DNA of 33,356 bases. Source: Rhodothermia bacterium (GTDB taxonomy: Bacteria > Bacteroidota > Rhodothermia > Rhodothermales > UBA2364). The stretch lies in assembly GCA_017303715.1 (NCBI GenBank), contig JAFLBZ010000017.1, positions 1 through 33,356 of the forward strand. Direction: 5' to 3'. Position numbers and translations under genes: made by a program. Shown piece after piece: positions 21,101-33,356 of this stretch (position 1 is the first letter of the stretch; every line of letters begins with the position of its first letter). The notes under the pieces are model-generated. The model saw only the letters and a list, made by a program, of their open reading frames with translations. It did not search any database and was not told the DNA's origin.

Positions 21101-21132
21101 TTTGAAATTTAGAAAAGTGCATACTAAATTTG
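21101..21132 (+). promoter_or_regulatory. Bacteroidota-type promoter of the LacI-family gene
   Basis: TTTG (21101-21104) lies 20 bp upstream of TAAATTTG (21125-21132), which matches the TAnnTTTG -7 consensus exactly. The GTG start of the regulator is at 21193. The operator palindrome begins at 21131, overlapping the last two bases of the -7 element, as expected for autorepression. Confidence 0.6.
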
Positions 21133-21144
21133 TAAGCGCTTACA
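21131..21144. promoter_or_regulatory. LacI-family operator palindrome, copy 1
   Basis: TGTAAGCGCTTACA is a perfect 14-bp palindrome with the central CG step usual for LacI/GalR operators. It lies at the -7 element of the regulator's own promoter. The identical 14-mer recurs at 22265-22278. Confidence 0.85.
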
Positions 21145-21192: not shown

Positions 21193-22203
21193 GTGTCTAT
21201 AACCATTTATGATATTGCTGAAGAAGCGGATGTCTCTATTGCAACCGTTTCTCGTGCATTTAACAACCATCCAAGAGTTTCTTCCAAAACACGTAAACGC
21301 ATTTTTGAAATTGCCGAGCGGCACAATTACCAGCCCAATGCCTCAGCGCAAAGTTTGGCCAGAAAGAATACTTACCTGATTTCTGCGATTATCCCAATGA
21401 TGGCCAATTACTTCTTTTTGGAGGTGATTAGAGGGTTACAAGATCGCATTTTTGGGTCGGAATTTGACTTGACCATCTATCCGGTGATTGATCCAGACCA
21501 AGCGCCAGCCCAATTAGAAAGGGCTATGCAACGTGGACGAAGCGAGGGTATGATGTTGTTTTCTACATGGCTAACCGATGACCAGGCGGACTGGCTCCGC
21601 GCCTTTTCACAGCCTGTGATTTTAGTGGATTCCCATCACGAGTTATTCGACTCGATCGCGGTGGATAACCGAAAAGGTGGGGAGATGGCCGTAGCGCATT
21701 TGCTCCAGACGGGATTTCGTCGAATTGGGTTGGTCGCGGCAAATCTGGCTGCTGTTCCGGCACGAGACCGTAAAATTGGCTACCAAAGGGCCTTGCAAAA
21801 AGCGGGTATTGCCTTTGATCCTACCCTTGTTATCGAGAGTAAGGATGTTGTTGTTCATGGTTTTAGTGAGGAATCTGGGTATGAGGATACGCTTCGTTTG
21901 CTTGAACAGGCGCAAGATTTAGACGCCATCTTTGCCACCTCAGACGTACAAGCATTGGGCGCTTTACGCGCTTTTCGGGAAGCGGGCTTGCGTTGCCCGG
22001 AAGACATTGCCTTGATGGGATACGACGATGTAAAATTGGCTGCTTTTGCGGGCTTAAGTACCATCCGCCAACCCATGAATACGCTGGGCAATCTTGCGGT
22101 GGAATACTTCTTTAAACGATTAGAAGACCCGAATGCAGAGGTTACACACATTAGCTTAGAGCCAGAGGTGGTAGCACGCAATACTTCTTCCAAGCTGAAA
22201 TGA
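21193..22203 (+). CDS. LacI/GalR-family transcriptional regulator
   Basis: The 336-residue repressor has the LacI layout. An N-terminal HTH (residues 4-25, IYDIAEEADVSIATVSRAFN) and hinge (NYQPNASAQSLARKN) are followed by a periplasmic-binding-protein-like effector domain (LISAIIPMMANYFFLEVIRG, IAVDNRKGGEMAVAHLL, DAIFATSDVQALGALRAFRE, IALMGYDDVKLAAF, LSTIRQPM). The start is GTG at 21193, which places the HTH at residue 4; no upstream ATG fits. The effector cannot be inferred, although most members bind sugars. Palindromes at 21131 and 22265 and a weaker copy at 32272 flank its own and neighbouring promoters, so it likely controls itself and the surface-protein genes downstream. Confidence 0.95.
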   Translation: MSITIYDIAEEADVSIATVSRAFNNHPRVSSKTRKRIFEIAERHNYQPNASAQSLARKNTYLISAIIPMMANYFFLEVIRGLQDRIFGSEFDLTIYPVIDPDQAPAQLERAMQRGRSEGMMLFSTWLTDDQADWLRAFSQPVILVDSHHELFDSIAVDNRKGGEMAVAHLLQTGFRRIGLVAANLAAVPARDRKIGYQRALQKAGIAFDPTLVIESKDVVVHGFSEESGYEDTLRLLEQAQDLDAIFATSDVQALGALRAFREAGLRCPEDIALMGYDDVKLAAFAGLSTIRQPMNTLGNLAVEYFFKRLEDPNAEVTHISLEPEVVARNTSSKLK

Positions 22204-22264: not shown

Positions 22265-22278
22265 TGTAAGCGCTTACA
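22265..22278. promoter_or_regulatory. LacI-family operator palindrome, copy 2
   Basis: The same perfect 14-bp palindrome, TGTAAGCGCTTACA, stands 70 bp upstream of the parvulin gene and 62 bp after the LacI-family gene. It probably controls the 22348-32018 genes. I see no clear -33/-7 pair at this copy. Confidence 0.85.
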
Positions 22279-22347: not shown

Positions 22348-24036
22348 ATGCTTTTCAAAAAAGGATTAGGATTACTGGGTTTGATGGTGCTGGTTCAATT
22401 TTCCGTAGCACAACCAGCTCCGGCCTTGGCTGATGTGGCTGGAAGTGCCATAACGACCGCTCAATTTAAGACACGCTACACCGATTATCTCTTAAAAACG
22501 GGCCTCAAAGACGATCCAAGGCTTCGGAAAGCCATGTTAGAGACGATGGTTTCTACGGAAATGATTGCTCGTGCGGCGGAAGAGCGGGGAATCGTACAAA
22601 CGCCGGCCTATAAATCTTGGCAAAAGCAGGTACGTCGCAAACTTAGTTTAGAAGCCTATTCTTCTCGGGTAATGTACCGAGACCTTGCGCCTTCGGAAGC
22701 AGAAATGCAGGAAGTATTGCAGCGGGCTTATACCACGATGAGAGCAAGCCATCTTTTTGCACGTGACAAAGCGGCGGCGGAACGTTTGTATGCCCGGCTC
22801 AAGGCAGGGGAGGCATGGAATGCCTTGGCAAAGGAAGTTTTTGCAGATTCCACCTTGGCCAACAATGGTGGATCGGTGGGGCGCTTTGAATTTGAGGAAA
22901 TGGATCCCGTATTTGAGCAAACGGCCTTTAGACTCAAACCGGGAGAGATCTCCACGCCTGTTCGTACTGCATTGGGTTATTCCATTATCCGATTAGACGA
23001 GAAGTTCACCAAGCCCATTATTACAGAAACGGAATTTGCCAACCGTAGAGACCGCTTGGCACAATATATCCTGCTCCAGAAGCGGCGCGAGGTTCGGGCG
23101 GAACACGCAGATCAACTTGAGCGGGACATAAAACCCGTCTGGAATCAGGCATCTCTCAACCGTCTGGTTTTACAATTAGAAGGGGGCGATATTGATCCGG
23201 CACGCAGACGGGAATTGCAAGCCTTGGCACTACAACCGAATTGGCAGAAGCAGCCTTTGGTGCATTTTGGCGTTTCGGGCGAGCGCAGAACTTGGACGGT
23301 TGCGCAATTTCGCTCAGAAGCCGAAGCCTTTACATCGGCGAAACAACGGGCTGCGATTAAGGACAAATCGGGTTTAATGCGTTTCGTTGTTGGGCTTTTG
23401 TTGCAGGACGAGATGGTACGGAGGGCAGAGAAAAATAGGTTTCATCAACTACCCGCTTTTATTGAGGCCGAGCGCCAAAACATGAAAGATTGGACAGTTC
23501 GTGAGGAAATGGCACGTTTAGACAAAACCATACACATTCCGATAGACTCCCTAAGATCCTATTTTGAACGAAACCGAGCGACAATGTTCTCCGACGAGAA
23601 GGTACAGGTTGCGGAAATCTTGGTTTCTACCCTCGAAGCGGCACGAAGCATAAAAGAAGACCTTACCGCCGATAACTTTTCTGAATTGGCGCAAAAATAC
23701 ACCGAGCGTCGCGGTGGGGTTGATTCGAAGGGCGATCTGGGGTACGTCACCCAAGCCGAATTGGGCGCACTCGCCGAAGCCGTTTGGCAAAGTGAAAAAG
23801 GGAGCATTTTAGGCCCTTTGGAAGTGTCAGGCAAATATGTTCTGCTCAAAGTCGGGGACAAACTGCCACCGCTTCCGCTTAACTTTGAACAAGCCGAACC
23901 CTATGTGCGCAGGTTGTTGTGGAATACCTATAGCGAAAAGGTAATGGCGCAATACCGAACTTCATTAGAAGCGAAATATCGCCATAAAACCAGCACAAAC
24001 CCGGCCTTATTGTACGATGTGTCTTTGTATAATTGA
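22348..24036 (+). CDS. Periplasmic SurA/PrsA-like peptidyl-prolyl isomerase with two parvulin domains
   Basis: The 562-residue protein is exported (signal peptide ending at about SVA-Q22). Like SurA it has an N-terminal helical chaperone region (about 30-130) and two rotamase domains. The first is at about 132-218 (ASHLFARDKAAAERLYARL, NNGGSVGRFEFEEMDPVFEQTAF, GEISTPVRTALGYSIIRL). The second is at about 418-505 (VQVAEILVSTLEAARSI, SKGDLGYVTQAELG, KYVLLKVGDK). It probably helps fold or deliver outer-membrane proteins. It heads the gene run after operator copy 2, and its stop is 9 bp from the open frame of the TonB receptor, so it is a dedicated chaperone candidate for that receptor, the large exported protein and the PorV-like barrel. 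Confidence 0.88.
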   Translation: MLFKKGLGLLGLMVLVQFSVAQPAPALADVAGSAITTAQFKTRYTDYLLKTGLKDDPRLRKAMLETMVSTEMIARAAEERGIVQTPAYKSWQKQVRRKLSLEAYSSRVMYRDLAPSEAEMQEVLQRAYTTMRASHLFARDKAAAERLYARLKAGEAWNALAKEVFADSTLANNGGSVGRFEFEEMDPVFEQTAFRLKPGEISTPVRTALGYSIIRLDEKFTKPIITETEFANRRDRLAQYILLQKRREVRAEHADQLERDIKPVWNQASLNRLVLQLEGGDIDPARRRELQALALQPNWQKQPLVHFGVSGERRTWTVAQFRSEAEAFTSAKQRAAIKDKSGLMRFVVGLLLQDEMVRRAEKNRFHQLPAFIEAERQNMKDWTVREEMARLDKTIHIPIDSLRSYFERNRATMFSDEKVQVAEILVSTLEAARSIKEDLTADNFSELAQKYTERRGGVDSKGDLGYVTQAELGALAEAVWQSEKGSILGPLEVSGKYVLLKVGDKLPPLPLNFEQAEPYVRRLLWNTYSEKVMAQYRTSLEAKYRHKTSTNPALLYDVSLYN

Positions 24037-24222
24037 TCCGTTGTCATGAACATAATGTTGTTTCAGAAAAACCATAACCCTTTTGATAAGGAAGCATCCG
24101 AAAATGACCTACAAGATATTGCAAAAGGTAGGCTCAAATCGAAGCCCATGCCTTTGGTAGGTTCTATGATAGAGCAAAATCCGCCACCTAATTCAGAATC
24201 CAATCACCCAAACAACGCAGCT

Positions 24223-27072
24223 ATGATGCGAATACCCAAACGTTGGATCGGTGTTTTTTCGCTGTTCTTGTTCGGTTTTGCGCCTTTGTGGGCACAGACC
24301 ACCGGAAAGATCACCGGAAAAGTATTTGATGCACAATTTAATTCTCCGATGCCGGGAGCAACCATCAAGATTCTGGGGACGACTCAGGGCGCCACGACGG
24401 ATGCCAATGGCGAATATGTTATTATTGGGGTTAGACCGGGTGTTTATGTTTTAGAAGTGTCTTTCGTCGGTTATGTAACCGAGAAGCGCGAGCAGATAAA
24501 CGTAAACATTGGCCTTACCACAACCGCCGACTTCAAGCTCCGTGAGCAAGTTATTGCTTCCGAAAAAGAAGTTGTAATTGTTGCGGATGCCATAAAAGTA
24601 CGAAAAGACGTTACAAGCTCCGAGTCGCGGGTTTCCGCCCAAACCATAGACAACATGCCCGTCCAAGAGTTGGGTCAGTTGGTTGGTGCGCAAGCGGGAG
24701 TCACCTCTAAAAACGGATCGCTCCACATCCGAGGTGGGCGCTCAAGCGAAGTAAAAGTCTTGGTTGATGGTGTTGCCGTGACGGATAGTTACGATGGTTC
24801 ACAATCCGTTCAAATCGAAAATGAAGGGATTCAGGAACTCCAAGTGATTTCAGGAACCTTCAATGCTGAACACGGGAATGCGATGTCTGGCGTGATCAAT
24901 GTTGTAACCAAGGAAGGAGGCAACACGAAATGGGGTGGTTCAGCAGAATGGTATTCGGGTTCTTATTTGGTGAGTGGCAAAGGCGGCGAAGATTATTTGC
25001 GAGGCATTAATGCCGGAGATTATACGGTTCGTGGTGTTCAATACCGCGATGTTGACCCTTACGGCTATTTACCTGCAAACCCGCTACATTACCAAAATGC
25101 AAAATTGGCTATTGATGGTCCCATCATTAAAGACCGCGTTTCACTTTTTGCGCTGGCCCGCTACTTCAAAAATGATGGTTGGTTTTATGGCGTTCGTAAA
25201 TACAATATAGACGGTACAAGAGGCGATAGCGCCTTGGTTCCGATGAACAATTTTGAACGACTTAGCTTACAGGCAAACTTTAAAATCCAACTAAAAAAAG
25301 GGATGTTCATAAACGTCATCGGCTTGGCCAACCAGTCGGAATCGCGAAATGGTGATTTTAACCTACGGTGGGCGCCGGATGGACGAGGCCGGAACCAAGA
25401 CTTGGGCTATGATGTGAAGGTGAAGTTTACCCACCTCGTCTCGAACAAGACCTTCTATAATATTGATGCGGGTATGTTTTTCCGCAATGCCAAGGGAGGA
25501 TTGTTCGATGATCCTTTGGATTCACGCTACAACAATTTCGGCAACCAACCCCCAGATTCTGTCGAGGTCGTTCCCGGTGTATGGGAAACCGTTGTCCGTG
25601 GAGGAAGCCGTTTTGCACGTGGTGGGACAGATTTGGGGCGCTACGACCGTGATACTCGTAGCCAAATCTTGCAAGGTAGCCTCAACAGCCAAATTTCTAA
25701 ACATCATCTGGTAAAAGTGGGCTTCGAGGCCAAACAAGACGTCATGAATTTAAAGGCGTATGGCCTTATTCCAAAAGTGGATGCGGATGGAAACCCTATT
25801 GTGCCTTTTCAGCCGGCTATTCCCGATGAAACTTCTTTAGATTTCTCGTCCTTTAGCGACATTAAGCCCTTCTCGGCAAGTGCCTACATTCAGGACAAAA
25901 TGGAGTACGAAGACCTGATCATCAATGCGGGATTGCGTTTTGACTATTTCGACTCCAACGGACAGACCTTGGCAGACCCTTCGGATCCGAACGTCTATGC
26001 GCCGTTCAAAAAAACCAATATTTATAAGGACACCAATAACAACGGGGTGATTGATGCTGCCGAAGAGGTGGAAAACAACAAAAAAACCTTAGATGAGCGC
26101 TTGGCCTATTGGTATCAAGACGCAACGCCTAAGTTCCAACTTTCCCCGCGCCTCGGTGTAGCGTATCCTATTACCGAAAAAGGGGTGATCCACTTCTCTT
26201 ATGGGCACTTCTTGCAAATTCCTACCCTAAACCGTTTATTTGATAACTACGGGTATAAAATCCGTACAAACTCTGGTACATACGGGCCATTTGGAAATCC
26301 AGACTTAAAGGCCCAAAAAACCGTGATGTACGAGATCGGGATTCGTCAGGGCTTTGGCGATTATGTGGTTGACGTTACTGCCTACTACCGCGACGTGCGC
26401 AACTGGGTGGCCACCTCGCCAGTGATTACTACCGAAATTCCGGGTACAACCTATGTGAACTATGCCAACCGTGACTATGCCAATACACGGGGGATGACCC
26501 TATCCTTTAACAAAACCTACTCCAACAACTGGGGAGCAGACTTGAGCTACACCTTCCAAGTTGTTGAAGGGTCAAATTCTAACCCGAACGACGAATTTTT
26601 CTCGCTGCTAAGCAACTCACAACCCACCATTGCATTGCTCCCCTTAGATTGGGATCAAAGACATCGGTTGTCGGGGTCTGCATATACCAACTTTGCCGGA
26701 TGGGGCGCTTCCTTACTCTTTAATTATGGAACAGGATTTCCCTTCACGCCAAGTTTTGGTAAAGCATCCCTCTTTGGTGCGAATGTTCAGCCGGAATTTG
26801 CCCGCAACTCACGCCGTATGCCTGCCGAGTTCCAAATAGACCTCAACCTAAACCGCGAGTTTAAATTAGGCGCAGTAAAACCAAAGTTCTTCCTCCAAGT
26901 CTTTAACTTGTTGGATCGTCGGAATGTGACGGGAGTTTATGGCGATACCGGAAAACCCAACATCCAACTTCAGGTTCGCGATACGACCAGTTTTGATCCG
27001 GGTTTCTGGATTCGGCCTTTCAACTATTCTGAGCCGCGCCGTGCGCACTTGGGAGTAGAATTTAAGTTTTAA
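24223..27072 (+). CDS. TonB-dependent outer-membrane receptor with carboxypeptidase-regulatory-like domain
   Basis: This is an outer-membrane receptor. From the ATG at 24223 it has a signal peptide ending at LWA-Q25, a CarboxypepD_reg-like beta domain (about 28-112, GKITGKVFDAQF to VNIGLTTTADFKL), a plug domain (about 130-235, QELGQLVGAQAGVTSKNGSLHIRGGRSSEVKVLVDG, GVINVVTKEGGN) and a barrel to the C-terminal aromatic (HLGVEFKF). I prefer 24223 because the open frame continues 59 codons upstream to 24046 with a polar, non-signal sequence that would bury the signal peptide. No SusD-like partner follows; its neighbours are a large exported protein and a PorV-like barrel instead. The substrate is unknown. 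Confidence 0.93.
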   Translation: MMRIPKRWIGVFSLFLFGFAPLWAQTTGKITGKVFDAQFNSPMPGATIKILGTTQGATTDANGEYVIIGVRPGVYVLEVSFVGYVTEKREQINVNIGLTTTADFKLREQVIASEKEVVIVADAIKVRKDVTSSESRVSAQTIDNMPVQELGQLVGAQAGVTSKNGSLHIRGGRSSEVKVLVDGVAVTDSYDGSQSVQIENEGIQELQVISGTFNAEHGNAMSGVINVVTKEGGNTKWGGSAEWYSGSYLVSGKGGEDYLRGINAGDYTVRGVQYRDVDPYGYLPANPLHYQNAKLAIDGPIIKDRVSLFALARYFKNDGWFYGVRKYNIDGTRGDSALVPMNNFERLSLQANFKIQLKKGMFINVIGLANQSESRNGDFNLRWAPDGRGRNQDLGYDVKVKFTHLVSNKTFYNIDAGMFFRNAKGGLFDDPLDSRYNNFGNQPPDSVEVVPGVWETVVRGGSRFARGGTDLGRYDRDTRSQILQGSLNSQISKHHLVKVGFEAKQDVMNLKAYGLIPKVDADGNPIVPFQPAIPDETSLDFSSFSDIKPFSASAYIQDKMEYEDLIINAGLRFDYFDSNGQTLADPSDPNVYAPFKKTNIYKDTNNNGVIDAAEEVENNKKTLDERLAYWYQDATPKFQLSPRLGVAYPITEKGVIHFSYGHFLQIPTLNRLFDNYGYKIRTNSGTYGPFGNPDLKAQKTVMYEIGIRQGFGDYVVDVTAYYRDVRNWVATSPVITTEIPGTTYVNYANRDYANTRGMTLSFNKTYSNNWGADLSYTFQVVEGSNSNPNDEFFSLLSNSQPTIALLPLDWDQRHRLSGSAYTNFAGWGASLLFNYGTGFPFTPSFGKASLFGANVQPEFARNSRRMPAEFQIDLNLNREFKLGAVKPKFFLQVFNLLDRRNVTGVYGDTGKPNIQLQVRDTTSFDPGFWIRPFNYSEPRRAHLGVEFKF

Positions 27073-27122
27073 GCAGATGTGCTCACCGGCAAAAAGCCCT
27101 AAGCCTCAACGAACATAAAATT

Positions 27123-30100
27123 ATGCGATCATCTTTTCTTAAATACCTGCTCGTTCCAATGGCCCTCCTAATGGTTGGTCAAGTTCGGGCGCAAGGTGTG
27201 GTGGATCGGAACCATGTGCCCAGTAAAGAGCGCGTGGACGACCTCCAGCGCCGAAAAGACGTGGTGGACGGCAACAACCTCCGCGCAACCATTACGAACT
27301 TCCTGCAAACCGCACAGTCCGGAGAGCCGGGAGACATCTTTTATGAATGGCCCAAAAACACCAACCGTATCTACGTTGCCCTCTCGCAAATGTGGGTCGG
27401 TGCGGAAGTGGCCTCGACCGACGGAAAGCCGCTCTATATTGTAGATGTGGCAAACTTCAGAAATAACCTCAACAACGGCACAAACGCTTGGAACTTCCGG
27501 CCTATCAAGGGCTATGTGAATCCCGCCGGACGTGCGTTTGGGATTGCACAATCCGATGAACCCAACTCGTGGCCTGCAACATGGCCCGATAAGACAAACG
27601 ATGCCACCGACCCGGGTTGGCGTGGCAGTTGGAATGGATTCTTTGGTAAAGATATCTTTAATGCAGACCAAGAGTTTTTCTACAAAGCCGGAGACGACCA
27701 ATACGACCGATACCCCAATTATTTCCCAGATGATACAGACCGTACTCGGAAAGGACTTGGTTTGGTGGTGGATGCCCGCGTCTTGTCTTGGAGCCAAATC
27801 CTCATCCAAGATGCCGTTTTTCTCTTACATGGCATTAAGAACGATGGTTCTAAAGACCTGAACAAAGTAGGCGTGTCTATCTGGTTGGCCGACTTGGTGG
27901 GCGGGGATGCCTCCGATGATATTCCGTTCTTCGATCTTGCGGAAGACGTCGCTTTTATGACCGATGCCGACGGAATCGGAACCGAGCCATTTGGTTCCGA
28001 AAAAGTGGGGGTTGCTGCAATCGCTTTCTTGGAAACACCCGGAAATGCGGTGGATCGGATTGACAACGATGGCGATGGCTCTACCAACGATTGCAACATC
28101 GCTACAGGAGAATGTTCTAGCCCCATCGTGACTGAAGCCATGATTGCCACAGAAGACCCCACAAATGGGATTGATGACAACGGCAACGGTCTTGTGGATG
28201 AAAACCGCGCCCATATCGCCTTTACCGATGCACAGGCTTCGAGCCGTGGGGTAGGTTATGCAGACCGTGTGGATAACGATGGCGATGGCGAACACGGTAG
28301 CCCGCTGGTAACAGAGGCTATGGCGGCGGCAAGTGCTTCTGATAAATGGTTGCGTTGGCCACCAAATCCAGAAACCGATCCGTTCTTGGCCAATATTAGC
28401 CCCAAACCCGTTCACTTGGTCATGATTGAGCAAGACGACATCGGTAAAGGGTTTAAAGATGGGATAGACAACGACAACAGCGCCAACGATCCCAAAGGGC
28501 AAATCCGGTATGGATGCGAAGAGTATCTCTCGGAAAAAAATTCCCCATTAGTGACACAAGCCATGATTGATGCCGCTAAAAGTGATCCCTATGGCCGATA
28601 TATCGTACCCGGAACCAGCGTGATCTTGTACCAATTGGGGCAAGAAGACCTCGGAAAACCCTATGCCGATGGCAAAGACAATGACGGCGATGGTGCCATT
28701 GATGAAGGCATTGATGAAATGATTGATGAAATGATTGATGAAAGCAGATCCGACGGAATTGACAACGATTGTGATTGGGATCCGCTACGCGATGACACCG
28801 GCTTGGATGGAGTACAGTTCTCCGGAGATGCGGGTGATGGCGACCGAAGTCCAACAACGGGAGCTGGAACCGATTTTCCGGGCGAAAAAAATATTGACGT
28901 TACCGACGTCTCCGAGTCCGATCAAATCGGTCTGACCAACGTAAAAATTATTCCAGCCTTTACCTTAGACTTTAACCGCCAGTCAGACCAAGAGTTGTTC
29001 AATAAATACATGAAACCCGGAGAATTGGATACACAAAAACCACCTCCCGGCGAGAACGACTTGGTGGTTTCGAGTGGGATCTTCCCTTTAAAAGCGGGCC
29101 AAACCGAACGGTTTTCCCTCTCTATTCAAGTTGGCTCCGACCGTACCAACGTGCTTCGCAAGCGCGATAACGCATACCAAGCCTATGCAGAAGACTACCA
29201 GTTTGCGCAAGCACCAGCCGTTCCAGCACTTACCGCAGTTCCGGGGGATAAATCCGTAACCTTGTATTGGGATAGCGCCGCAGAAGAATCCGTAGATCAG
29301 TTTCTCTTGGGGTTAGGATTACCCGCAAAAGACTTTGAAGGCTATCGGATTTATCGCGCAACGGATCCCGCATTTTTGGATGCACTCAAAATAACCGATG
29401 GCTACGGTAACCTGAGCTACAAAAAGCCCATTGCACAATTTGACCTAAAAAACGGTGTAAATGGCTTCCATCCGGTGGATGTAAATGGCGTTAAATTCTA
29501 TCTTGGTAATGACAGTGGCTTGGTTCATAAATTTGTAGATACGACTGTAGAAAACGGCATCACGTACTATTATGCCATTACCTCCTACGACTTTGGTGCG
29601 GCCACAGCCAATATCTCGCCGACTGAAGCGCCTGTTCGGATTCGTCGTCTGCCAGATGGAACCATCGAGACAGCCAAAAACGTGGTTAAAATTACACCCG
29701 GGCCTGCCGCAGCCGGATATACAAACGCAAAATTTGCCGGAACAACCCCAATTACCCTCACAAAAGGGTTAACCAGTTCTAAAATTGATTATACCATTAT
29801 AGACCCAACGGTGATTAAGGACAGCAACAAGTACCGGATTACCTTCCGTGATACCTTGATTGTTTCCCCTAACCCAAACTTGCCGGACACCTTGACCACC
29901 AAAAGTTGGTCGCTTTATGATGTGACGGCTGGGAAGTATCTTTTGGAAAAACAAAGTGCTGGATTAAAAACGGGAACTGAATTTCCGCTATTTGATGCCA
30001 CTGGAAAGGCACTCGGTTTCCGGTTGATTTTCCAGAATGAACCCTTTGTTACCCTCAATACTGCTGATAGCTTCTGGAAAAACAGTGCGGGCGCAGCAAA

Positions 30101-30965
30101 CAATCAGGTATTCCCGATTACTTTCGAGCCTTATGTTGGGGGAACCTTTGTACGGGGTCTCCGGAACCCGGCGGATTATCGCATTAAAATCGTAGAGCCG
30201 GGGCTGGGGCAATCCGTACAACTAAAAGTTCGCTCCAATGTTACCTTACCTGCTCGAAAAACGAACTTTCAGGTGTTCCGACTTGAGCCAGACGGTAATG
30301 GGGGTGTTAAAGAGGTTCCGATTGAATATGCGTTCTGGGATTTGACAGGGCCTGAAGCCGAAAACCTCGCCGTTCCGGGTATCTTTAGCAACGACACCCA
30401 ATTCGGTGAATCCGACTTTATCATTTTCTATGAATCCAAAGTTGGCGATACCTCCGGTCAGAAGATCATCACGTGGCGTGTTGGGCTTAACTTCACCTTG
30501 AAAGACCGCAAAAATCCGGCAACGGGTGATAATATTACGCTCTCTCTACGGAAGCCACTCTTGTCCTCGGATGAATTTGAGTTCACCACCGAGGCCGCCA
30601 AGATTGATACCGAAAAAGCCAAAAACGCTTTAGAAAACGTGAAAGTGGTGCCAAACCCATATGTGGCCACCAACCGATTTGAACCACTTAACCCATTCTC
30701 GACTGGGCGTGGGCCTCGTGTAATCAAGTTCATGAACCTGCCGACAAATTGCACGATCCGCATCTATACCGTTAGTGGGCGATTGGTCAAAACCTTGAAC
30801 CGAGACTATGGTGCAAACATCACCTCGCGTGATCTCTTGGATGGTTCCTTGGATTGGGATCTCCAGAGTGAAGACGGACTTTCGGTGGCTTATGGCATCT
30901 ACGTCTATCATGTAGAAGCACCCGGACTTGGGGAATCCACTGGCACTTTTGCCATCATTAAGTAA
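27123..30965 (+). CDS. Large exported protein with Asp-rich calcium-type repeats, Fn3 domain and T9SS-like C-terminal domain
   Basis: The 1280-residue protein has a signal peptide (RA-Q24). Residues of about 310-550 contain repeated acidic motifs of the form DNDGDG or DDNGNG (RIDNDGDG, GIDDNGNG, RVDNDGDG, GIDNDNSAN, KDNDGDGAIDEG, GIDNDCDWD), like thrombospondin type 3 or EF-hand calcium loops. These alternate with a second repeat, SP(I/L)VT(E/Q)AM. Next is an Fn3-like domain at about 699-830 (VPALTAVPGDKSVTLYWD, FEGYRIYRAT, TYYYAITSYD). The last ~110 residues (ENVKVVPNPYVATNRF to TGTFAIIK) resemble FlgD-like or T9SS type A sorting domains, with IYTVSGRLVKTL and AYGIYVYHVEAPG. Export to the surface by type IX secretion is likely but not shown. 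It is probably co-expressed with the receptor and PorV-like barrel around it. Confidence 0.82.
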   Translation: MRSSFLKYLLVPMALLMVGQVRAQGVVDRNHVPSKERVDDLQRRKDVVDGNNLRATITNFLQTAQSGEPGDIFYEWPKNTNRIYVALSQMWVGAEVASTDGKPLYIVDVANFRNNLNNGTNAWNFRPIKGYVNPAGRAFGIAQSDEPNSWPATWPDKTNDATDPGWRGSWNGFFGKDIFNADQEFFYKAGDDQYDRYPNYFPDDTDRTRKGLGLVVDARVLSWSQILIQDAVFLLHGIKNDGSKDLNKVGVSIWLADLVGGDASDDIPFFDLAEDVAFMTDADGIGTEPFGSEKVGVAAIAFLETPGNAVDRIDNDGDGSTNDCNIATGECSSPIVTEAMIATEDPTNGIDDNGNGLVDENRAHIAFTDAQASSRGVGYADRVDNDGDGEHGSPLVTEAMAAASASDKWLRWPPNPETDPFLANISPKPVHLVMIEQDDIGKGFKDGIDNDNSANDPKGQIRYGCEEYLSEKNSPLVTQAMIDAAKSDPYGRYIVPGTSVILYQLGQEDLGKPYADGKDNDGDGAIDEGIDEMIDEMIDESRSDGIDNDCDWDPLRDDTGLDGVQFSGDAGDGDRSPTTGAGTDFPGEKNIDVTDVSESDQIGLTNVKIIPAFTLDFNRQSDQELFNKYMKPGELDTQKPPPGENDLVVSSGIFPLKAGQTERFSLSIQVGSDRTNVLRKRDNAYQAYAEDYQFAQAPAVPALTAVPGDKSVTLYWDSAAEESVDQFLLGLGLPAKDFEGYRIYRATDPAFLDALKITDGYGNLSYKKPIAQFDLKNGVNGFHPVDVNGVKFYLGNDSGLVHKFVDTTVENGITYYYAITSYDFGAATANISPTEAPVRIRRLPDGTIETAKNVVKITPGPAAAGYTNAKFAGTTPITLTKGLTSSKIDYTIIDPTVIKDSNKYRITFRDTLIVSPNPNLPDTLTTKSWSLYDVTAGKYLLEKQSAGLKTGTEFPLFDATGKALGFRLIFQNEPFVTLNTADSFWKNSAGAANNQVFPITFEPYVGGTFVRGLRNPADYRIKIVEPGLGQSVQLKVRSNVTLPARKTNFQVFRLEPDGNGGVKEVPIEYAFWDLTGPEAENLAVPGIFSNDTQFGESDFIIFYESKVGDTSGQKIITWRVGLNFTLKDRKNPATGDNITLSLRKPLLSSDEFEFTTEAAKIDTEKAKNALENVKVVPNPYVATNRFEPLNPFSTGRGPRVIKFMNLPTNCTIRIYTVSGRLVKTLNRDYGANITSRDLLDGSLDWDLQSEDGLSVAYGIYVYHVEAPGLGESTGTFAIIK
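28698..28745 (+). repeat. Four tandem 12-bp repeats encoding an Ile-Asp-Glu run
   Basis: Units begin at 28698, 28710, 28722 and 28734 and share ATTGATGAA followed by three variable bases (GGC, ATG, ATG, AGC). They encode IDEG, IDEM, IDEM and IDES within an acidic loop of the large exported protein. Units 2 and 3 are identical, suggesting recent expansion by whole units that keeps the frame. Confidence 0.85.
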
Positions 30966-30968
30966 CCG

Positions 30969-30976
30969 CAGGAGGA
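30969..30976 (+). promoter_or_regulatory. Strong Shine-Dalgarno sequence before the PorV-like gene
   Basis: CAGGAGGA lies 7 bp before the ATG at 30984, a near-perfect anti-16S match. Most genes in this window have no recognisable SD, as is usual in Bacteroidota, so this one stands out and suggests a high translation rate. Confidence 0.6.
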
Positions 30977-30983
30977 AACCAAC

Positions 30984-32018
30984 ATGAAAAACCAACTTTT
31001 CAAACATGGTCTTGCGGTTTGCCTGATGCTGGTAGTGGCAACGACCGCGGGGGCACAAGATACCCGAAATGTAACCAATCGGGGTACCACTGCTGCCGAA
31101 TTTCTTTCCATTCCGATTGGCGCTCGTGCTACCGGTATGGGAAATGCTGTAACCGCACAGGTGGACGACCAGTCCGCAATTTATTGGAACCCCGCAGGTC
31201 TGACAAGTTTGGATAAGCCGGGGCTGAGCTTCGAGACCGCCAAATGGATCAACCAAATAAGTTTCAACTATGGCGCTTTTAGCACTCCTTTGGCAGGAGG
31301 GACACTGGGCGTTGGGATTACTTCCATCCGCACGCCGGAAATGGAGGTCGTTACCGTCGAGGAGCAAGACGGAACGGGCGAAACCTTTAATGCCGCTTCC
31401 TATGCCGTTTCTTTGTCCTATGGACGAAAACTAACCGACCGATTCTCGATCGGGGGGACGGCAAAATTGGTCTCGGAACGCATCTGGCACTCAAGTGCAA
31501 ACGGGGTGGCCATAGACATCGGAACCTTGTTCGTGACGCCTTTCCGTGGGGTTCGCCTCGGCGCTACCATCACCAACTTTGGTACGAAGTTGCAAATGGG
31601 GGGAGATGACTTGCTGATCACCACCGATATTGACCAAAACGCAGAAGGCAACAACGAAAGCCAACGGGGTTTCTTGAGAACCGATAAATTCGGGATGCCC
31701 CTTATGATGCGCATTGGTCTTGCGGGCGAAGTAGTGAAAACCAAACAAACCCGCATAACACTGGCTGTGGATGCCCTTAGCCCGAACAACTCGGAACAAT
31801 TTCTGAATGTTGGCGCCGAGGTGGGGCTTCTGGGGGATCTGGTGGTCTTGCGTGGAGGGTACAACGAGTTGCTGTTGAAAGACAGTTTACGCGGCCTTAG
31901 TGCGGGTGCTGGAATTCGGTACCGTTTTGGGGGTATAAACCTCGGTGTGGACTATGCTTACGAGTCCCAGAAGTACTTCAATGCCATCAATCGGCTTACG
32001 GTCTCGATGAAGCTCTGA
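30984..32018 (+). CDS. PorV/PorQ-family outer-membrane beta-barrel protein
   Basis: The 344-residue protein has a signal peptide ending at GA-Q25. The conserved N-terminal motif of PorV/PorQ and UPF0164-type barrels follows: FLSIPIGARATGMGNA, then QVDDQSAIYWNPAGL. The remainder is a series of strands (VGITSIR, YAVSLSYGRKL, IGGTAKLVSE, AGIRYRFGGINLGVDYAYE) ending in the aromatic/Leu terminus LTVSMKL. PorV shuttles type IX cargo to the sortase at the cell surface, and this protein sits directly after the large exported protein with a sorting-like C-terminal domain, 18 bp apart, so a dedicated cargo-carrier pair is plausible. Whether it is PorV itself or a paralogue cannot be told. Confidence 0.88.
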   Translation: MKNQLFKHGLAVCLMLVVATTAGAQDTRNVTNRGTTAAEFLSIPIGARATGMGNAVTAQVDDQSAIYWNPAGLTSLDKPGLSFETAKWINQISFNYGAFSTPLAGGTLGVGITSIRTPEMEVVTVEEQDGTGETFNAASYAVSLSYGRKLTDRFSIGGTAKLVSERIWHSSANGVAIDIGTLFVTPFRGVRLGATITNFGTKLQMGGDDLLITTDIDQNAEGNNESQRGFLRTDKFGMPLMMRIGLAGEVVKTKQTRITLAVDALSPNNSEQFLNVGAEVGLLGDLVVLRGGYNELLLKDSLRGLSAGAGIRYRFGGINLGVDYAYESQKYFNAINRLTVSMKL

Positions 32019-32037
32019 GGTACATGGCAGATTTTAG

Positions 32038-32131
32038 CAAGGGAAAGAAGATCGTCGGCATCTTGAGCATGGGTCTAAGACAAATCGGCCTCTTCTGGTA
32101 TGCTACACGGGTATTCTTTCTCTTGCTTTTT
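32038..32131 (+). terminator. Long-range stem with U-run after the PorV-like gene
   Basis: CAAGGGAAAGAA (32038-32049) pairs along all 12 positions with TTCTTTCTCTTG (32114-32125), one G-U pair included, enclosing about 64 nt that have weak internal pairing (AGCAT/ATGCT). CTTTTTT follows the 3' arm directly. It fits a terminator, with an unusually large apical part. Confidence 0.45.
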
Positions 32132-32134
32132 TAG

Positions 32135-32271
32135 TAAGTAATTGTAAAAAGAAGTCTTAGAAGTGAAAATTGTGGTCTTGTGTGGAGGCCCTCAATTTCT
32201 GGGAGGCTATTTTATAACGAATCTACTTGCGCTTGCGTTAAAAAAGCCTTAATCTTATGTGTTGTGAGCAT
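32135..32271. other. Non-coding part of the 316-bp gap before the propeller gene
   Basis: Together with the terminator-like stem (32038-32131) and operator copy 3 (32272-32285), this makes up the intergenic region 32019-32334. I see no gene, tRNA or strong hairpin here. A weak promoter is possible: TTG (32234-32236), 20 bp, then TATGTGTTG (32257-32265), which deviates from TAnnTTTG by one base. Confidence 0.4.
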
Positions 32272-32285
32272 GTAAACGCTTTCGC
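32272..32285. promoter_or_regulatory. Degenerate LacI-family operator, copy 3
   Basis: TGTAAACGCTTTCG matches the 14-bp palindrome found at 21131 and 22265 in 11 of 14 positions and keeps the core ACGCTT. It lies 49 bp upstream of the start at 32335 and just after the best promoter candidate in this gap. Confidence 0.55.
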
Positions 32286-32334
32286 AAATTCTTTTGAAAC
32301 CCCAATTCTCAATCATCAAACATAGGAAGTAAAC

Positions 32335-33356
32335 ATGAAAAAACTTCTACTCATGCTGGTGATGGGCGCATTCCTGATGCCATTGGCTGCCCAAGCGCAG
32401 AACCCATGGACACAGGCAGGTGCCTTTCCTTCAGCAACCTTCCCCACCACAACCAACCCAAAAGTGAACTGGGATGGTCATGGTGTTGCGGTAGATCCGG
32501 ATGGCAAGATTTGGTATCAACCATATTATGCTACGGATAGTACCAATGTTAACTGGCAGGCGAAGAAAGTCGCGACACGTGTTATTTATGTCTTTAACCC
32601 AGATGGCACACAGGCTTCTTTTTCTCCGGTTAAGTACATTGACCTACCGGGTGGTAAGCGGGATACCTTAGGTGGCGTTACCATCAAGACAGCCGCTGGC
32701 GCAAAATCTTTTGATCCCAATACAGGCCGTGGCTTACGTCTTGCACCAGATGGTCATATTTTGGTTTCTCAGTTCAACCTCCTTTACAAATTAGACTATA
32801 AAACGGGTGCAGGTCTGAACAAGGCTGTTGTGAACTCTTCCGGGCAATCCATTGCAGCAGCAGCGGTGGATAATGCCGGAAATATTCTGGTTGCTACAGT
32901 TACGCCGGGTGCTGAGCCAATGAAAATGTATGACAAAGATTTTAACTTCATTGGCAATGTGATCGAAAAATCTAAAATCAAAGGTTACTCACGTTCCTTC
33001 TTGCTTTCACCAGATGGCAATACCATCTATTGGTCAGGATATACCAATCACGGTGTTATTATGTATAAACGTGCCGATGAATTTTCTCCATACGATTCTA
33101 CAGGGATAGTCTTAGCAGGGTTTGATTCTGAGTCTATGACATTCCACCCCGTTACGGGTCATCTTTGGGCAAGTGCTGGCTCTAGTTTAGATACACCAAA
33201 CCGTTATCCTAATGTAAAAACCACGTGGAAACGCCGCACTTGGTACTCCTTCAACCCATCAACCCTAACACCGAAGGATTTGAACGATGCAGAAACCGCT
33301 TTAGAAAGTTTTACTTGGTCACCAACTGTGCCTGCAGATACCCTTGGTCGTCCGCG
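32335..33356 (+). CDS. Exported NHL/SGL-type beta-propeller protein, 3' end outside window
   Basis: The ATG at 32335 is preceded by an AGGAAG ribosome-binding site (32324-32329) and opens a frame of 340 codons that runs off the right edge. A clean signal peptide ends near AQA-Q22. The mature part has the repeated propeller-blade motif of SMP-30/gluconolactonase and NHL proteins: GVAVDPDGKIWYQ, GLRLAPDGHILVSQFN, AAVDNAGNILVATV, FLLSPDGNTIYWSGY and MTFHPVTGHLWASAG. Such propellers often bind ligands or hydrolyse lactones. The C-terminus, where a type IX sorting domain would be, is not visible. Operator copy 3 suggests that it belongs to the LacI-type regulon. Confidence 0.85.
   Translation, partial: MKKLLLMLVMGAFLMPLAAQAQNPWTQAGAFPSATFPTTTNPKVNWDGHGVAVDPDGKIWYQPYYATDSTNVNWQAKKVATRVIYVFNPDGTQASFSPVKYIDLPGGKRDTLGGVTIKTAAGAKSFDPNTGRGLRLAPDGHILVSQFNLLYKLDYKTGAGLNKAVVNSSGQSIAAAAVDNAGNILVATVTPGAEPMKMYDKDFNFIGNVIEKSKIKGYSRSFLLSPDGNTIYWSGYTNHGVIMYKRADEFSPYDSTGIVLAGFDSESMTFHPVTGHLWASAGSSLDTPNRYPNVKTTWKRRTWYSFNPSTLTPKDLNDAETALESFTWSPTVPADTLGRP

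Follow-up and report, generated by a model that had tools for sequence, protein, structure and literature searches.

Here we report the analysis of a predicted starch utilization operon in a Rhodothermia bacterium of the order Rhodothermales, in which a TonB-dependent receptor is encoded together with a protein exported by the type IX secretion system (T9SS) and an outer-membrane barrel of the PorV/PorQ family. The analyzed stretch of DNA, hereafter the window, covers positions 1-33356 of the 87,466-base contig C17 in a 4.35-Mb genome. Its plus strand carries, in this order, ispG, a LacI-family regulator gene, and the genes for a double parvulin (PPI), the TonB receptor, a 1280-aa exported protein (BIG), the PorV/PorQ-family barrel (PorVL) and the start of a starch-binding protein (PROP). 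SusCD pairs are the textbook polysaccharide uptake route in these bacteria. No SusD gene was found between the LacI gene and the barrel gene or elsewhere in the operon, and the complete set listed by a first-pass annotation of this DNA, namely LacI, double parvulin, TonB receptor, 1280-residue exported protein, PorV/PorQ barrel and a missing SusD, was confirmed on the plus strand. We propose that the locus is probably a starch (alpha-glucan) utilization operon built on the TonB receptor, in which T9SS-exported BIG and its dedicated PorV/PorQ-family barrel stand where the Sus system of Bacteroidota has SusD.

Organization of the locus

The LacI-family regulator (21193..22203, plus strand, GTG start) contains the PF00356 (66 bits) and PF13377 (Peripla_BP_3) domains and is MalR-like by its regulon. 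An exact match of its predicted operator, the perfect palindrome TGTAAGCGCTTACA, lies upstream of lacI at 21131..21144, and a second exact match at 22265..22278 precedes the PPI-TonB-BIG-PorV operon, about 70 bp 5' of the PPI start. Control by a LacI-type regulator had been part of the first-pass annotation, and both the regulator and its conserved operators are present, although the lacI gene itself falls outside the interval 22348-33356 that the annotation described.

The operon starts with PPI (22348..24036, plus strand), an exported SurA-like double-parvulin peptidyl-prolyl isomerase/chaperone with two PPIC/Rotamase stretches. It is followed on the same strand by the TonB-dependent receptor (24226..27072) with CarboxypepD_reg, Plug and TonB barrel domains, whose reading frame is open from 24046, with translation probably starting at the ATG of position 24226, directly 5' of the signal peptide. 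The SusC model TIGR04056 scores 68.9 bits on this receptor, with a cut-off of 368. BIG (27123..30965, plus strand) begins 50 bp downstream and consists of a signal peptide, a conserved N-terminal region, Ca-type motifs, FN3-like beads and a T9SS-like C-terminal domain (CTD). After a gap of 18 bp comes PorVL (30984..32018, plus strand).

The PROP gene (C17:32335-35433, plus strand) is separated from PorVL by 316 bp, and only the N-terminal third of its 1032-aa T9SS-exported product (32335..33356) lies within the window. The gap contains a weaker operator-like site, TGTAAACGCTTTCG, at 32271..32284, with a position-specific scoring matrix score of 13.6, the next best non-operator site in the window scoring 7.3. 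The first-pass annotation had counted this gene as a propeller protein belonging to a single module with the others; it does stand in line with them, but behind a gap with an operator-like site of its own. Scans for promoters and terminators gave no excess over shuffled sequences. Further downstream on the same strand, 1.1 kb 3' of PROP, is a GH2 beta-mannosidase-like gene (C17:36540-39002), which nothing ties to the starch operon.

Conservation of the operon and sister cassettes

The TonB-BIG-PorV genes are contiguous in 40/40 Rhodothermota loci, comprising 20 ortholog loci and 20 sister loci taken from six Rhodothermales genomes, and the arrangement recurs in other phyla. Since the first-pass annotation had named broken gene order in relatives as the observation that would count against its single module, its reading withstood this comparison. 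Close relatives of BIG were found in Rhodothermales, including a Rhodothermus and a metagenome-assembled genome of Rubrivirga, and full-length homologs with 40-48% identity in Calditrichota, Ignavibacteriota (Melioribacteraceae), Neomarinimicrobiota and KSB1, where the order PPI-TonB-BIG-PorV-PROP is mostly kept. A PPI ortholog stands in the corresponding position at 16/18 Rhodothermota ortholog loci and 30/42 loci from other phyla; PROP is present in 17/18 and 31/42 of them, respectively, and in 0/20 sister cassettes. BIG, with 52-93% identity over the full length in an alignment of 19 relatives, is better conserved than the receptor (48-59% outside the genus) and PPI (28-42%).

The genome under study contains four TonB-BIG-PorV cassettes and only two SusD genes (PF07980, contigs C1 and C22). 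Sister cassettes of the relatives adjoin genes for GH10, GH16 with CBM6, GH3, or GH130 with ABC (ATP-binding cassette) transporter genes, and judging by these neighbors the triad seems to be a general unit for glycan uptake, which suggests one cassette per glycan, as for SusCD pairs elsewhere. The broader proposal that the TonB receptor, BIG and a PorV-family barrel form a general glycan-uptake architecture of the Fibrobacteres-Chlorobi-Bacteroidetes superphylum, parallel to SusCD, we regard as evenly balanced.

One of the sister cassettes in the same genome (C20:8000-26965) combines LacI, a T9SS protein, TonB, BIG and PorV with two PF10091 'glycoamylase' enzymes, a sugar-binding protein and permeases (an ABC importer). 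It is conserved at 55-66% in relatives (loci L112, L116, L119, L122 and L126) and resembles a complete locus for the uptake of another glucan.

The predicted LacI regulon and the probable alpha-glucan substrate

We read the regulon from the stretches of genome around the operator sites. The genome contains the exact palindrome TGTAAGCGCTTACA at three sites, located 5' of lacI, of PPI and of the gene for a T9SS-exported GH13 enzyme. Three of the four sites with one mismatch are located 5' of alpha-glucan genes: one precedes a glucan phosphorylase gene that itself comes after a GH13 gene, one a GH57 gene, and one a GH13+CBM48 gene with genes for GH13 and a sugar-binding ABC protein behind it; about 0.7 such places are expected by base counting. 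The fourth site, within an unrelated gene of contig C6, was set aside as chance. Matches with two mismatches were mostly due to chance (23 versus 14 in the reversed control), thus only sites with zero or one mismatch were counted. The palindrome is conserved before lacI and alpha-glucan genes, as expected of a MalR-type LacI regulon. At C5:126950 the same genome encodes a T9SS-exported GH57 enzyme, one domain of which matches the Ig-like domain at the N-terminus of alpha-glucan water dikinase. Export is unusual for GH57 enzymes, most of which are intracellular.

In relatives, the operon is headed by lacI orthologs with 45-51% identity, and a strong operator was found at every LacI-bearing ortholog locus with readable upstream DNA and at 0/5 loci without LacI. 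Sister cassettes do not have the operator, with the sole exception of L129 (contig C4 of genome G005), where the same LacI (45%) is present and an exact operator stands before a divergent TonB-BIG-PorV cassette that also includes a GH13 gene. No starch-type BIG ortholog was found in the genome of L129, in which one type of cassette has apparently been exchanged for another that serves the same sugar. A sister-type cassette of Melioribacteraceae (L208) also has a LacI gene (27%) and an exact TGTAAGCGCTTACA, hence the palindrome may be common to several LacI proteins in other phyla.

The genes beside BIG point in the same direction as the regulon. By BLAST, GH13, GH57 or GT35 genes adjoin BIG at 16/18 Rhodothermota ortholog loci, 24/42 loci of other phyla and 0/20 sister cassettes. 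The homologs of PROP contain CBM_20 in 18/18 cases (best E-value 1.5e-9) and CBM53 in six, and PROP of the window itself matches CBM_20 by sequence at E 0.032 only. In the structural model of PROP, one CBM20-like domain aligns with STBD1 in complex with maltotetraose (Z 10.5, root-mean-square deviation (rmsd) 1.9 over 92 residues) and a second one with CGTase (Z 9.7, rmsd 2.8 over 95 residues). These folds occupy the middle of the protein, which ends in a true T9SS type A CTD (Por_Secre_tail). The propeller assignment of the first-pass annotation, made on a gene cut by the window end, is retained to the extent that the first third is weakly propeller-like (NHL, 20 bits); PROP is mainly a predicted starch-binding protein. 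About 340 extra N-terminal residues of PROP (C17:32335-33500) are absent from the homologs of about 680 aa in other Rhodothermales. Because of the LacI regulon, the neighboring enzymes and the CBM20 folds of PROP, starch or alpha-glucan is strongly indicated as the substrate of the operon.

BIG and its proposed PorV-family partner

The Ca-type repeats assigned to BIG by the first-pass annotation are real: five D-x-DNDGDG-like acidic motifs (aa 311-560; 28053..28802, plus strand), identified by motif positions and alignment columns, are largely invariant across 20 orthologs and represent probable Ca sites, without a matching Pfam family. The AlphaFold model of BIG (aa 24-1165, 20 orthologs) has a mean pLDDT of 58 with an unfolded N-terminal half, its Foldseek search returned FN3-type bead matches only (E > 0.001), and sequence searches of the PDB with BIG found nothing. 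On account of this model and the bead-only matches, no ligand-binding fold of BIG can be named. BIG itself may bind starch, as proposed below.

The CTD of BIG (30609..30962, plus strand, by CTD profiles) belongs to a VVPNPY...KFAIIK class. The first-pass annotation called it type IX-like, which is accurate in that the domain is T9SS-like; it scores 16.9 bits with the type A model TIGR04183, under the cut-off of 23. Among the NCBIfam families matched by 32 BIG CTDs there is no type B model, and the matches to PorZ (31/32), PorU (27/32) and type A cargo (25/32) are all weak, with the best E-value about 1e-6. All 109 BIG CTDs (109/109) score far better with their own profile and PNPF-type enzyme CTDs show the opposite preference (0/123), a separation that is partly by construction, as the profile was scored on its own training set, its weight resting on the low cross-scores. 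WD40 proteins also matched by the CTD profile were rejected as repeat artefacts. These sequence comparisons place the BIG CTD in a separate class, which stands closest to the CTDs that PorU and PorZ retain. BIG also has a hydrophobic N-terminal signal, as expected of a T9SS substrate, and the translocon component SprA is encoded in the same genome (1613 bits) and in 26/27 genomes tested, the remaining one being a 1.8-Mb assembly, probably a single-cell genome.

PorVL matches the PorV/PorQ family model NF033709 over residues 35-343 with 189.5 bits (cut-off 90), and its profile finds the translocon PorV (6h3i_F) at E 1.6e-12. Its scores with the equivalog models are below the cut-offs for both PorQ (92.9 bits, cut-off 220) and PorV (63.9 bits, cut-off 250). 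In the PorV tree, a single clade (100/100) unites the starch PorVLs of Rhodothermota and excludes the sister barrels. BIG and PorV choose the same partner locus in 115/168 genome comparisons, where 46 are expected. The BIG-PorV distance correlation of 0.90 was not counted as evidence of binding, because species history alone yields such values, and the evidence for pairing is limited to partner choice within genomes. In Porphyromonas gingivalis, PorV holds PorU and PorQ holds PorZ (PMC5562754), and the CTDs of PorU and PorZ stay uncleaved (PMC11285876). By analogy, BIG may be held by PorVL with its CTD retained.

Proposed mechanism and alternative explanations

Computational support extends to the conserved gene set, the LacI operators, the regulon of alpha-glucan genes, the starch-binding folds of PROP, the separate class of the BIG CTD and the strict pairing of BIG with a single lineage of PorV; surface anchoring and ligand capture we infer. 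In the proposed mechanism, LacI would repress the operon until a maltodextrin signal is received. PPI would assist the exported proteins across the periplasm, BIG would be exported by SprA/T9SS, and PorVL would collect it via the uncleaved CTD and keep it at the surface, as in the PorV-PorU and PorQ-PorZ pairs. BIG, probably Ca-stabilized and located beside the receptor, and PROP with its CBM20 domains would hold starch while secreted GH13 enzymes cut it. BIG would feed glucan to the TonB receptor, which would import maltodextrins, to be handled further in by ABC or other permeases and glucan phosphorylase. The first-pass annotation had envisaged either a nutrient-capture or a surface-assembly system with its own carrier barrel. 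The likely nutrient can now be named as starch or alpha-glucan, and the CTD class and the strict pairing lend indirect support to a carrier role of PorVL.

Several observations weigh against this proposal. A GH13, GH57 or GT35 neighbor is absent at 18/42 loci of other phyla, several of which are on short contigs. The same genome has a canonical SusC-SusD pair (C1:57178-62029) 2.4 kb from a GH13 gene; it lies downstream of genes for an SSF symporter and, divergently oriented, a SusG-like GH13 enzyme, and a weak LacI operator-like site with two mismatches, TGTAAGCGATTCCA, is found 166 bp 5' of susC. This pair may constitute a second alpha-glucan port, and the triad is perhaps not the sole one. 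A separate sus operon has also been described in Melioribacter roseus (PMC3534657). The N-terminal half of BIG is without a recognizable fold, its CTD is just moderately under the type A threshold, and co-inheritance in one operon inflates the BIG-PorV pairing statistics.

An unlikely alternative is that PorVL is a general extra T9SS shuttle for the secreted amylases and PROP, which have type A CTDs, with BIG just one of its cargos. The regulon indeed holds several enzymes with type A CTDs that would need shuttle capacity on starch, and in Flavobacterium johnsoniae PorV serves every type A CTD (PMC12618676). However, these enzymes are scattered in the genome, which has a separate PorU-PorV pair on contig C1, whereas PorVL adjoins BIG at every locus checked, its lineage tracks the BIG type, and the BIG CTD forms a separate class. 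Improbable as well is a Ca-stabilized surface adhesin or S-layer-like assembly, whose nearness to starch genes would reflect attachment to starch granules or algae and not uptake. In its favor, BIG is large and acidic with FN3-like beads and PROP is predicted to bind starch, but the triad invariably includes the TonB receptor, an energized importer, its sister cassettes adjoin glycan enzymes and in several cases ABC transporters, and a sugar-type LacI is in control.

It is quite improbable that the TonB receptor imports a ligand other than starch and that its link to LacI and GH13 is due to chance or secondary: the loci of other phyla without a nearby alpha-glucan enzyme, the GH2 gene downstream of PROP and the SusCD pair near GH13 would agree with this, but the alpha-glucan content across the regulon, the CBM20 folds of PROP, the contrast with the sister cassettes and the L129 case argue for starch. 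A FadL-like maltodextrin channel, with BIG acting with the TonB receptor alone, is equally improbable, as the weak match of PorVL to FadL/TodX (PF03349, E 0.008) is far exceeded by its PorV/PorQ and translocon PorV matches, and in sister cassettes for other glycans the barrel family is tied to the CTD protein and not to a permease.

If the proposed mechanism is true, a second TonB-based architecture, with a T9SS-displayed surface protein, would account for how Rhodothermota, Calditrichota, Ignavibacteriota, Marinimicrobia and KSB1 use glycans; several of the triad genes are still labelled hypothetical in these phyla. It would also provide a role for many PorV/PorQ paralogs and add to T9SS a CTD class with its own barrel. 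The question whether a PorV-type barrel can permanently hold a nutrient-binding protein beside a TonB importer thus becomes testable in a lineage with cultured members.

Comparison with known systems

We found no description of the TonB-BIG-PorV triad in the open-access literature searched. A close functional parallel is provided by the SusCD polysaccharide utilization loci of Bacteroidota, which likewise combine a TonB receptor containing CarboxypepD_reg with surface glycan-binding proteins, GH13 enzymes and sugar-responsive regulation; as in those loci, glycan enzymes (GH13, GH57, GT35) and a regulator are found here in the locus or regulon. In contrast to them, the locus lacks SusD and its receptor is far under the SusC cut-off, which leaves two defining traits of a Sus system missing; its surface proteins are predicted T9SS cargo and not SLP lipoproteins, its operon includes a PorV-family barrel and PPI, and LacI takes the place of SusR.

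The PorU:PorV and PorZ:PorQ pairs of P. gingivalis (PMC5562754) share with BIG and PorVL the combination of a surface protein having a retained-type CTD with one barrel of the PorV/PorQ family. Unlike PorU and PorZ, BIG has neither sortase nor PorZ domains and no role in cargo processing is predicted for it, and the pair, which occurs in several copies per genome, shares its glycan-uptake operon with a TonB receptor gene. In the systems of type B CTDs with PorP/SprF-like shuttles (PMC9143113, PMC12618676), the cargo gene also adjoins the gene of its own barrel, with cognate CTD-barrel recognition and barrel anchoring, the latter being our proposal for BIG. However, the barrel described here is of the PorV/PorQ and not the PorP/SprF family, BIG has no type B CTD match, and the predicted function is nutrient uptake and not the display of gliding adhesins.

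Finally, the xylan cluster Rmar_1067-1081 of Rhodothermus marinus includes LacI, secreted glycoside hydrolases, a TonB receptor and, behind the receptor, proteins listed as hypothetical, two of which have a por CTD (PMC6987092). It differs from the starch operon in containing SusCD, and its hypothetical proteins were not identified as BIG or PorV; with their identity assumed by position, the cluster fits an unrecognized sister cassette of the architecture proposed here.

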